Source: Dehalococcoidia bacterium
GTDB taxonomy: Bacteria; Chloroflexota; Dehalococcoidia; Lucifugimonadales; GCA-2712585
Direction of reading: 5' to 3'
Assembly (NCBI GenBank): GCA_002712585.1
Contig: PAUC01000002.1
Span: 44,932 to 88,366, forward strand
DNA: 43,435 bases
Under the pieces are notes generated by a model, which was not told the DNA's origin, did no database searches, and worked only from the letters and a program-made list of their open reading frames with translations. Both the position numbers and the translations under genes were made by a program. Positions 78 through 16,067 of the stretch are shown piece after piece (within the stretch, counting starts at the first letter, position 1; the number at the start of each line of letters is the position of its first letter).

Positions 78-1460
78 TCATACTGACTCCAACGCACGCT
101 TCAGGCCGACTATCAAGTCCTCATCCTCTCCCACTAAAACCGTCCGAGCATCCAAAAATAGTTTGTCTTCCGAAATTTTCCCGATCACCGGTTTAGGTAG
201 ACGTCTTAACTCCCGTCCAAGTGATTCTACCTTTCCTGGCTTATCAATACACAGAGACCAAGATGGTAACAAAGCCCCAGGGAGACTACCTCCTCCGATT
301 GTAGATTGCGATGAAATTACCGTAGCAAGTTCGCCTCCGATCTGGTCTTTCCAAGCCTGCACTCGTTTCTTCAGTTTATATGGATGTTCCGATATCATCT
401 TCCATACTGGGACCTTATCCAATGCCTCTCCCTTAACGTAATGCAATAGAGTCGCTCGTAGTGCTGACAAACTTAGTTTATCAATCCTCATTGCCCTCAT
501 TAGAGGATGTTCGGACAATGTCGCAATTAAATCTCTTCTTCCTACGATGATCCCTGATTGAGGTCCACCCAAAAGCTTGTCTCCCGAAAAAAACACCAAG
601 TCAGATCCATCCCCTATGCTCGCTTGAACTGTTGGTTCGTAATTCAGTCCAAACGCCCTGGTATCCAATAGACAACCACTTCCTATATCATGAAACATGG
701 GTACGTCATGCTCCCTGCCTAAATCCGCAACTTCTTTGACAGTGGGAGCATGCGTGAAGCCCATGACAATAAAATTACTAGAGTGAACCGTCAATAAGGC
801 AGCGGTATTTTCATTCAATCCTCTTCTATAATCTTTCAAATACGTCCTATTAGTAGACCCTACCTCAACCAGAACAGCCCCACTCTGGGCCATCACTTCA
901 GGAACACGGAACCCACCGCCAATCTCTACTGCTTCTCCACGAGAAACAATGACTTCTCTACCATTAGCTATCGCAGCAAGCGCGAGTAATACTGACGAAG
1001 CATTATTATTTACTACTAATGCTGCCTCGGCTCCTGTAATTCTAGTGAGAAGGCCTTCAACCTGAACTTGTCTCGACCCTCGATTCCCTGACCCCAAGTC
1101 CAATTCTAAATTAGAATAGCCTTGAGAAGAATGGATTATAGCGTTAGCAGCTTCCATACTAATGGGAGCACGACCCAAATTGGTATGTAATACCACTCCA
1201 GTAGCGTTAATCACTGGCTTTGGTCCAATTTCTGCGAACGAAGATAAGCTTTCCTTAACTTGATCAATTAGGGAAATGAAACTGGGTGCAGGGGAACCAT
1301 TTAGTAAGCTATTTCGTGCGTGATTAATGGTATCTCTGACTAATTCAGTGACAATTAGTCTATCATAATCTCTCAAAATTTCCTTAAGTTCTGGATTTGA
1401 GAGAATCTTCTCAACACTGGGCAGGTTTCGTAGGTTCATGTTCCTCAATAATTCTATCAT
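78..1460 (-). CDS. selA: L-seryl-tRNA(Sec) selenium transferase (SelA)
   Basis: This PLP enzyme converts seryl-tRNA(Sec) to selenocysteinyl-tRNA(Sec) using selenophosphate. The 460-residue length is typical of bacterial SelA. An N-terminal helical region (about residues 1-75) is followed by the signature VINATGVVLHTNLGRAP near residue 83. The PLP lysine lies in FSGDKLLGGPQSG and falls at residue 295, the same number as the catalytic lysine of E. coli SelA. The ATG start is kept because no better upstream start exists; the ribosome site is a weak GTGAG. Its partner selD lies about 12 kb away and is itself apparently a selenoprotein, so the Sec trait looks functional. selB and the Sec tRNA are not visible here. 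A PIG-L deacetylase lies 104 bp upstream on the same strand. Confidence 0.96.
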   Translation of the reverse strand: MIELLRNMNLRNLPSVEKILSNPELKEILRDYDRLIVTELVRDTINHARNSLLNGSPAPSFISLIDQVKESLSSFAEIGPKPVINATGVVLHTNLGRAPISMEAANAIIHSSQGYSNLELDLGSGNRGSRQVQVEGLLTRITGAEAALVVNNNASSVLLALAAIANGREVIVSRGEAVEIGGGFRVPEVMAQSGAVLVEVGSTNRTYLKDYRRGLNENTAALLTVHSSNFIVMGFTHAPTVKEVADLGREHDVPMFHDIGSGCLLDTRAFGLNYEPTVQASIGDGSDLVFFSGDKLLGGPQSGIIVGRRDLIATLSEHPLMRAMRIDKLSLSALRATLLHYVKGEALDKVPVWKMISEHPYKLKKRVQAWKDQIGGELATVISSQSTIGGGSLPGALLPSWSLCIDKPGKVESLGRELRRLPKPVIGKISEDKLFLDARTVLVGEDEDLIVGLKRALESV

Positions 1461-13190: not shown

Positions 13191-13208
13191 TAATTGTTAG
13201 GAGCTACC

Positions 13209-14258
13209 GTGGAACACAAAAAGATACGTCTCACTGCCTTAGCAAATTGCGCAGGTTGAGCTTCCAAATTTCGCGCTGAAGACCTGGTCGAGGTCTTAAA
13301 GTACTTACCACAAGAAATAAGCGATCCGAAACTACTCGTTGGGCTGAATACTGGAGATGATGCGGCCATATATGAATTAGATAAGGAATCAGGCTTAGTA
13401 TTTACATTGGATTTTTTTCCACCCGTAGTCGATGATCCCTTTCATTACGGTGCTATTGCTGCAGCTAATTCCCTTAGCGATGTCTATGCTATGGGAGGAA
13501 CTCCCCTCATGGCCCTCAACATTGTAGGTTTCCCTGCCGACCTTCCCAAATCGATCCTTGGCAGCATACTAAAAGGCGGTCATTCCAAAGCATTGGAGGC
13601 GGGCTGCATCGTCGCCGGTGGCCATACAGTTGATGATAAGGAGCCAAAATATGGTATGGCTGTGATAGGTACCGTAAAACCCGGGGATCACATTTCAAAT
13701 GCTGGATCTCGACCAGGTGACCGATTAATTTTAACCAAACCCCTAGGAACAGGTATTATAACAACCGCTGGAAAGAATGATGCCGTAAGTCAAACATTGC
13801 TAAACAAAGCAATTAGGGTTATGTCTACTCTAAACGACACAGCTTCAAGATTAATGGTTTCCATAGGTGTCAACGCAGCTACGGATATCACAGGGTTCGG
13901 ATTAATTGGACACTTAAAAACCATGATGATACAAAGCAAGGTATCAGCGAAAATTCAGGCTTCAAAAGTTCCAGTAATTGATGGAGTTATAGATCTCATT
14001 AATAGAGGGTTCGTTCCAGGGGGTACGCACAGAAATTTAGCGGATTCAGAATACAATGTAGAATGGAGCAGGCAACTTTCAGTCGCAGAAAAGCTTCTCC
14101 TATCAGACGCCCAAACCTCTGGGGGGTTATTGATATCGGTTCCTGAACACAATACTAAGGCTCTCTTAGAAGAACTCAACTCCAATAACGTTAGGATCGC
14201 AGCTATAATAGGGGAGGTATATGATTCTCCTAACCCTGGAATTCAAGTAATGCCTTAA
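13209..14258 (+). CDS. selD: Selenophosphate synthetase containing selenocysteine (SelD)
   Basis: SelD makes selenophosphate from selenide and ATP. The frame open from about 13260 lacks the N-terminus, but translation from GTG 13209 (AGGAG five bases upstream) gives RLTALANCAG, then UGA (13257-13259), then ASKF, and continues without interruption to a 349-codon protein of normal SelD length. The UGA sits at residue 17, where E. coli SelD has catalytic Cys17, and the following Lys matches Lys20. A SECIS-like hairpin follows. Downstream are GDDAAIY, TLDFFPPVVDDP, the LSDVYAMGG segment and ATDITGFGLIGHL. I read the UGA as selenocysteine, not a nonsense mutation. The stop overlaps the convergent thiS stop by four bases. 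Confidence 0.93.
13257..13297 (+). promoter_or_regulatory. Sec UGA codon and bacterial SECIS hairpin in selD
   Basis: A perfect 7-bp stem, AAGACCT (13279-13285) and AGGTCTT (13291-13297), encloses the loop GGTCG. The loop begins 27 bases after the UGA, within the 16-37 nt window expected for bacterial SECIS elements. It has G at its first two positions, and GGUC matches the loop type recognised by SelB in E. coli fdhF. Confidence 0.85.
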
Positions 14259-14489: not shown

Positions 14490-15122
14490 TCAATCGATTA
14501 CCATAGCTGACCTAATATTAGAAGTCTCGATAACACGATCAGTTGAAGCTAAGATAGATCTCATGACAGCAACGCCAGAAGCCCCTGATTCTATAACTGA
14601 TCGCACATTAGTTCTGTTGATTCCCCCAATACCAATATATGGTATCTCTACCCTACCTTCCAATTTCTTTAACAAATCTATCCCTTGGACTTCCTCCCCT
14701 ATATGTGTAATTGATGAAAATACCGTACCCACAATCAAATAATCAGCTCCAGACTGTTCCGCGTCTATGGCCCCTTCTAGACTATGAACCGATTTCCCTA
14801 TCAAAAAAGATTCTCCGGCAATTCTTCTAGCGTCAGGAATTGATATTCCATTCTCCCCCAGATGAACCCCGTCGGCTTCTCCCAATAAAGCAATATCAAC
14901 CCGTTCGTTAACAATCAATAGGGCGTTGTCTTTCACGCAACTTTTAAACTGCCGAACCTGCGATAAAAGATCCTTTCCAGATAAGTCCTTTTCCCGAATC
15001 TGAACCATATTTATCCCTGCTCCTATGGCTGGTTCAAGGTCTCTGAATAAATTGGCAGAATCACAAATATTCCTATTGGTTACTAGGCACAATATAGGAG
15101 CCAACGGTAATCTCGAAATCAT
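14490..15122 (-). CDS. thiE: Thiamine phosphate synthase (ThiE)
   Basis: ThiE couples hydroxymethylpyrimidine pyrophosphate and thiazole phosphate to thiamine phosphate. The 210-residue TIM barrel shows [15 protein letters not shown] (pyrophosphate and substrate contacts), [39 protein letters not shown] and IPYIGIGGI, all in the expected order. Its ATG overlaps the thiG stop (ATGA), indicating translational coupling. In the [10 protein letters not shown] block, Thr replaces the more usual Pro of GPVF, a variation also found in other members. Confidence 0.95.
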
Positions 15123-15910
15123 GATCTCTTAGGCAATGATTTAGGGACGTTGTCTTGAGGGCTACTAGGTTGTGCATATTCTTTTTTCTCAATTCGTCCC
15201 GCGATAAATGCTTGGCGGCCAGCTTGAACTCCTAATTTAAATGCCTCACCCATTAGTTCAGGTTGCCTTGCCTGAGCTATGGCCGTATTAACAAGAACCG
15301 CCGATGCCCCTAATTCCATTACTTGAGCGGCATCAGAGGGTACACCTAAGCCAGCGTCCACTATTACGGGAACTCTTGCTTGCTCAATAATGATTCTCAA
15401 TTCTTCCGTAGTATGTATTCCCTGGCCAGATCCAATAGCGGAACCTAATGGCATCACAGTAGCACAGCCCACATCTTCCAAATTCTTTGCAAGTACAGGG
15501 TCAGCATTAATGTATGGAAGAACTATAAAGCCTTCTTTCACTAATTGTTCAGCAGCTTTCAAGGTAAGCGTAGGATCAGGAAAAAGATATTTTGGATCGG
15601 GTATAACTTCTAATTTCACCCAATCAGTATTACCCACTGATCTTCCTAAACGAGCAACAAACAAAGCCTCATCTACAGTCTTACATCCGGCCGTATTAGG
15701 CAGGATCTGATATTTGTTCCAGTCCAAATAATCAAGAATGGTCTTTTCTGCAGGATTATCAAGGTCCAGCCTACGAATAGCTACTGTGATCATCTCGGTT
15801 CCCGAAGCCATAACCGTGTTCACCATATCATCCATATCACGGTATTTTCCGGTTCCCAAAATCAATCGCGAAGAAAATTTCTTACCTGCTATATTCAATA
15901 AATCTTCCAT
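15119..15910 (-). CDS. thiG: Thiazole synthase (ThiG)
   Basis: ThiG builds the thiazole phosphate ring from deoxyxylulose phosphate, dehydroglycine and the ThiS thiocarboxylate. Motifs include [29 protein letters not shown], the VKLEVIPDP segment, [13 protein letters not shown] and [21 protein letters not shown] start it at the ATG at 15910 because AGGAG lies six bases upstream and the result, 263 residues, matches the family. The frame remains open upstream to 15979, but those residues are not typical ThiG. The 157-bp leader was checked for a TPP riboswitch (CUGAGA and the pyrophosphate-helix consensus) and none was seen. It is first in the thiG-thiE-thiS unit. Confidence 0.95.
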
Positions 15911-16067
15911 ATAAACTCCTAACGATTCATAACTCGAAATTCCCCTCAGTTGAGTACTAGCATTGGCTCTCTTCAACAATCCGGGCTGATGTAACCCATA
16001 GACGGGGCTAAGCTTTTAAAAATAGCCTTGATTGCGTTATTTCAACATTACCGCAAGAACCATTAGC

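Follow-up and report, generated by a model that had tools for sequence, protein, structure and literature searches.

The selD gene and its in-frame UGA

The window analysed here is a stretch of 43,435 nucleotides (nt) from a SAR202-type Chloroflexota bacterium (G000:C6:44932-88366), whose 1.29-Mb genome assembly consists of 37 contigs and is 79% complete. Among the 16 read-through frames of the window, selD (selenophosphate synthetase) was taken up as a gene and the rest were assessed by eye. The gene extends over 13209..14258 of the forward strand, from a GTG start to a TAA end, and specifies 349 amino acids if UGA is read as selenocysteine (Sec). A likely ribosome-binding site, AGGAG (13199..13203, forward strand), lies 5 nt 5' of the GTG, and translation of the whole 349-residue frame with UGA as Sec finds a single UGA, at codon 17 (13257..13259, forward strand). 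The product matches the TIGR00476 SelD equivalog profile with 373 bits (cut-off 125) over residues 7-314. Its U17 aligns on C17 of PDB 3u0o, which we take to be E. coli SelD, and K20 is kept. When Sec-SelDs and Cys-SelDs are aligned with the product, the UGA falls where homologues have Cys and the frame continues; the residues flanking the UGA are conserved among relatives. These results bear out the original prediction that UGA encodes residue 17, normally a Cys, in a frame that runs unbroken from a GTG with a ribosome site to a full-length SelD. Its estimate of a 66-codon loss under standard gene calling was also correct, since translation table 11 offers only a truncated ORF with a TTG start (13407..14258, forward strand, 283 amino acids). 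Because the standard code drops these first 66 codons, the catalytic site is missing from selD as it would be annotated.

The gene selA, for selenocysteine synthase, is located in the same window, as predicted (78..1460, reverse strand; TIGR00474, 540.6 bits; PF03841). A gene for thiamine phosphate synthase (TIGR00693) and its neighbour (14490-15979, reverse strand) are convergent with selD. A tblastn comparison with plasmids returned 168 records, every one of them below 60% identity.

Sec-SelD is an established selenoprotein family, already well known from PMC4561486, PMC13188914 and PMC1794560 in the text available from each, and the present gene adds a case that is conserved among related genomes. 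It resembles the known Sec-SelDs in its single domain, in the position of Sec at the catalytic Cys site, in the in-frame hairpin downstream and in the presence of Sec machinery genes in the genome. The product can be aligned with E. coli SelD (3u0o, Cys17/Cys19) over 4-322, but differs from it in having Sec for Cys17, Ser for Cys19 and Cys for Gly14. It carries the motif CxxU (CAGU) and lacks a Cys at the second residue past the U. CxxU is found in 46 of the 50 SelD copies described below, as against ~5.6% of the single-domain Sec-SelDs of the GOS set in the available text of PMC2398784, where SelW-like proteins and SelD are the most widespread GOS selenoproteins. A Cys at -3 and a Cys at +2 of the U/C site are mutually exclusive among 117 rows drawn from overlapping sets: 76 rows have just the Cys at -3, 28 just the one at +2, 13 neither and 0 both.

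The hairpin and its conservation among relatives

A candidate SECIS hairpin follows the UGA at 13279..13297 of the forward strand, with a 7-bp stem (AAGACCU/AGGUCUU, 13279-13285 paired with 13291-13297) and the loop GGUCG (13286-13290). The stem and loop are those of the original prediction, which had the stem starting 26 bases after the UGA; the distance to the stem start is 19 nt, and it is the loop that lies at 26 nt. The bSECIS model in the Fig 2A legend of PMC13188914 calls for a loop of 3-9 nt, a stem of 4-16 bp, a spacing of 16-37 nt, a G within the first two loop positions and a minimum free energy (MFE) <= -7.5. With a loop of 5 nt that begins GG, a stem of 7 bp, a spacing of 26 nt and -8.3 kcal/mol for the stem-loop alone, the selD hairpin falls within that legend's constraints. 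Hairpins that comply with the model and have an unbroken run of 7 or more pairs, G-U pairs included, follow 8 of the 1559 TGAs on both strands of the window, selD included. The 47-nt piece by itself folds unremarkably (z -0.32; 64 of 200 dinucleotide shuffles equally good), and single-sequence folding was dropped as proof of a SECIS. Since that fold is not significant, the weight of the case for a SECIS is borne by comparative tests.

SelD was found in 48 of the 60 genomes searched (own genome included), in a total of 50 copies with exactly one TGA apiece. In all 50 copies the TGA is aligned at residue 17, and TAA, TAG or Cys occurs there in none. A Cys or a true stop in close relatives had been put forward as evidence that would speak against a selenoprotein; the relatives have TGA throughout. 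The other matches listed in this search have at most 34% identity and no stops. Among named relatives, those with the closest SelD are an uncultured Dehalococcoidia MAG (92%) and the SAR202 cluster bacterium AC-409-J13 (61%). Among 74 named loci, 67 are readable at residue 17 and have TGA (57) or Cys (10); the named set and the 60-genome set share entries (L110 and L016, for example, represent one match) and are therefore not independent. The motif ECAGCGAK is present in 9 of the 10 Cys-SelDs, and these nine come in part from records of the Firmicutes type.

Synonymous recoding, which leaves the protein sequence unchanged, gave z -2.48 (p 0.021) for the interval +9..+48 of the present selD. 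For the 50 Sec-SelD genes, which as related sequences do not amount to 50 independent cases, the mean z was -1.08 (+3..+42), -1.91 (+9..+48), -1.79 (+15..+54) and -1.41 (+21..+60), and further downstream -0.30 (+45), -0.45 (+90) and -0.34 to 0.13 (five windows from +180). The corresponding means in the first four windows of the 10 Cys-SelDs were -0.77, -0.38, -0.22 and -0.49. A stem score of at least 7 was reached by 42 of the 50 native genes, by 16% of the 3000 synonymous recodings and by none of the 10 Cys-SelDs. The sequences thus indicate selection for structure just 3' of the UGA, with a maximum at the place expected of a SECIS; the signal is far weaker, though not nil, elsewhere and in Cys-SelDs. 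The rule that the loop has GU towards its 5' side fails in 14 of the 50 genes, so this feature of the loop is not universal.

The selD hairpin is like the bSECIS consensus, as given in the part of PMC13188914 cited above, in its 5-nt loop beginning GG, its 7-bp stem and its 26-nt spacing; unlike that consensus, the loops of the 50 copies have their centres near nt 25, 32 or 38, counted from the U of the UGA. We refer to these positions as registers C (nt 25-25.5, 7 genes), A (nt 32, 24 genes, the present one included) and B (nt 38, 19 genes). The centres in the 57 named Sec-SelDs are at 38 (31), 22 (12), 25 (6), 32 (6), 37 (1) and 39 (1), and those in 3000 synonymous recodings scatter more widely, with 32 (1233), 19 (387), 25 (255) and 38 (205). 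This spread implies that the amino acids favour register A yet leave register B unexplained.

Tests of stem pairing, including tests of crossed structures, covered registers A and B. The stems are paired in 97.6% of the cells in register A and 94.4% in register B, percentages that are partly circular because the stem defines the register groups; this circularity affects the double changes and the slid controls less. Cells with changes on both sides of the stem number 14 in register A (shuffle mean 4.0) and 10 in register B (2.8 in shuffles), and the further pair types of register A number 6, which is not above shuffles (6.6). The crossed structures are 61.5% paired, slightly above their shuffles, and 75.4% paired, at shuffle level. 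On a tree built without the hairpin columns, in which 19 of the 47 inner branches are open, the registers require 13 changes versus 20.8 in shuffles. If only branches with good support are counted, the minimum number of changes is 4 for register A, 3 for register B and 4 for register C (each versus the rest), and G011 (A) and G048 (C), which are assigned to one genus, differ in register. As judged from these comparisons, the putative SECIS sits in one of three registers that have been switched repeatedly.

Two genomes have two Sec-SelD copies each. Those of G009 (L024, L090) lie near opposite ends of one contig and are nearly identical, which might point to an assembly repeat. Those of G008 (L044, L094) are in registers B and A, the second on a 3-kb contig, so that a mixed assembly is possible.

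Selenocysteine machinery and other UGA-containing genes

The own genome has a selB gene on another contig (G000:C34; 362.9 bits, cut-off 242.25); neither selB nor tRNA-Sec was found within the window. The original prediction had counted the absence of selB or tRNA-Sec from the complete genome as evidence against it. The gene selB is present; tRNA-Sec was not found in the assembly, which is 79% complete. A search with RF01852 gave 16 matches there, the best 8 of which are tRNAs for Ser, Leu, Gly, Cys and Tyr according to ARAGORN, and the 15 kb around selB yielded no tRNA. In the 48 genomes with SelD, selB was found in 47, selA in 45 and tRNA-Sec in 44, at a threshold (>=59 bits) that we placed in the break separating scores of 59.7 and 54.1 bits. 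ARAGORN recognised tRNA-Sec in all 30 of the loci scanned, those with the highest scores, and displayed the anticodon UCA for 12 of them. In the 12 genomes without SelD, selB is present in 5 and absent from 7. Two of these 5 genomes, G034 and G042, contain selA and tRNA-Sec as well as selB, and SelD was not found in them despite a completeness of 94-95%.

In 27 of those 30 loci (L045-L074), tRNA-Sec is immediately preceded, at a distance of 9-101 nt and in the same orientation, by a gene that carries a thioredoxin active-site motif; the exceptions are L065, at a contig edge, and L070 and L074, not at an edge. In the congener G001, the tRNA-Sec is 23 nt 3' of the thioredoxin gene and adjoins a gene that we have named rlmD-like. 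For the 1870-base segment of the congener that contains this tRNA-Sec, the DNA search of the own genome gave nothing, and congener DNA at selD and selB is 93% and 91% identical to that genome, respectively, over 4 to 5 kb; these two loci served as the positive control of the search for the segment, with a different tool, local blastn. The thioredoxin gene located ahead of tRNA-Sec in relatives likewise has no counterpart in the own genome, whose sole PF00085 match is weak and in a protein that we call TlpA-like. Because the segment and the thioredoxin gene are both missing while the selD and selB loci match the congener at 91-93%, the absence of tRNA-Sec is most likely a gap in the assembly.

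Other genes of the own genome also contain in-frame UGAs. A single UGA is present in 5 of the 7 PF00578 matches listed (8 in all) and in the genome's one SelW-like gene. These six Prx-, TlpA- and SelW-like genes (C5:26212, C2:7615, C12:19110, C9:16553, C6:35247 and C9:52883; L188-L193) have the read-through motifs GGUTNQ, GNUTRM, WUSC, WUPPC, WUTHC and CVPU, in which the UGA presumably occupies the position of the active-site Cys of homologues, with a role in thiol-redox chemistry. The hairpins of these genes provide weak evidence: none of the six passes the strict perfect-stem test, and 4 of 6 pass under looser criteria, as do 64 of 300 random TGAs. In a survey of 20 genomes, TGA occurs in 77 of the 150 PF00578 rows listed (165 matches in all), in 19 of the 20 genomes, and in 24 of 25 SelW-like rows, and TAA or TAG occurs in none of the rows listed for either family. 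Members of the AhpD-like family PF02627 were not found in the own genome, and UGA is present in 3 of 12 rows of that family from 8 genomes; no UGA was found in 16 thioredoxin (PF00085) rows from 8 genomes. Counted by UGA/Cys position, selD, five PF00578-type genes and one SelW-like gene make seven. In the available text of PMC5029168, which names Deltaproteobacteria, Clostridia and Synergistetes, a genome with at least six selenoprotein genes is selenoprotein-rich, and on its predicted genes the own genome may provisionally be placed in that class.

The notion that Sec decoding is retained for the sake of SelD was raised in PMC1794560, as far as its available text goes. SelD as the sole selenoprotein was rejected here in view of the UGA in the PF00578-type and SelW-like genes, which are likely selenoprotein genes as well. 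A use of SelD for selenouridine was rejected likewise, SelU (TIGR03167) being found in 0 of the 60 genomes at E <= 1e-20; control searches gave matches in E. coli and M. jannaschii, above the cut-off in one of them.

Interpretation of the UGA and its wider setting

We put the probability that this selD encodes a selenoprotein, with Sec predicted to enter at residue 17 through SelB and the hairpin, at roughly 0.96. SelB with Sec-tRNA would bind the hairpin whose loop is 26 nt past the UGA, and Sec would be put in at residue 17 as the nucleophile of selenophosphate synthetase. The selenophosphate produced by SelD would then be used by SelA for Sec-tRNA, including the Sec for new SelD. It follows from known biochemistry that an enzyme that needs Sec in order to make the Sec precursor forms an autocatalytic loop. 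The insertion, the catalysis and this loop of dependence are all predictions for the present organism.

An ordinary stop codon at this place would mean that selD has decayed into a pseudogene or that SelD is made from the TTG at 13407, where the table 11 ORF does begin. We regard this as most improbable, since the part of SelD that would be lost contains the catalytic site, relatives conserve the sequence on either side of the UGA, TGA has not given way to another stop in any of the 50 copies and the structure after the UGA appears to be selected. The UGA might instead be decoded without Sec, through low-level near-cognate readthrough in a strain that has lost tRNA-Sec, with the hairpin acting as a general readthrough element. 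The absence of tRNA-Sec from the assembly is in keeping with such a loss, but the assembly is 79% complete and lacks the whole segment in which the congener, a relative that does have tRNA-Sec, carries it, and selA and selB are intact; we consider this explanation very unlikely. The in-frame UGAs in several other genes could also be taken to mean that UGA is reassigned to a standard amino acid, Trp or similar, as in code 4. TGA terminates 10 of the 35 main ORFs of the window (a set of our choosing), the six other UGAs lie at what we take to be thiol-redox active sites and true tRNA-Sec exists in relatives, so that a sense reading of UGA is as good as ruled out. The reading that we prefer remains the insertion of Sec at residue 17.

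The broader pattern across genomes is of more interest than selD alone. We lean slightly towards the view that this SAR202 order has Sec locked in, with no Cys-SelD found, a SECIS that hops among three positions rather than disappearing, tRNA-Sec coupled to the thioredoxin gene as trxA-selC, and Sec present in many peroxidases and TlpA-like proteins of the thioredoxin fold. The order might then represent an unrecognised selenoprotein-rich clade of the ocean in which thioredoxin and the supply of Sec are co-expressed. Standard-code annotation would shorten the other UGA genes as it does selD, and because it cuts such genes the selenium biology of this marine group is likely to be hidden in annotated genomes.

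No report of SAR202 selenoproteins was found in the literature on selenium in SAR202 and on selenoproteins in Chloroflexota and Dehalococcoidia, as judged by titles and the openings of abstracts. The word "Chloroflexi" is absent from the main texts, as far as available, of PMC13188914, PMC4561486, PMC2398784, PMC5029168, PMC12013277 and PMC9402790. In the accessible text of PMC5649159, SelA and SelB are mentioned for sponge symbiont bins of various phyla, and in that of PMC11650866 selenium occurs only in a reference. The pairing of trxA with tRNA-Sec did not come up in the papers found on that subject, in which the word "trxA" does not occur; one of them describes selABC operons in the case of an unusual set of tRNA-Secs. 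A connection between thioredoxin and the supply of selenium can be tested on the trxA-tRNA-Sec pair, and the differing hairpin positions in one orthologous gene amount to a natural experiment on the tolerance of SelB.
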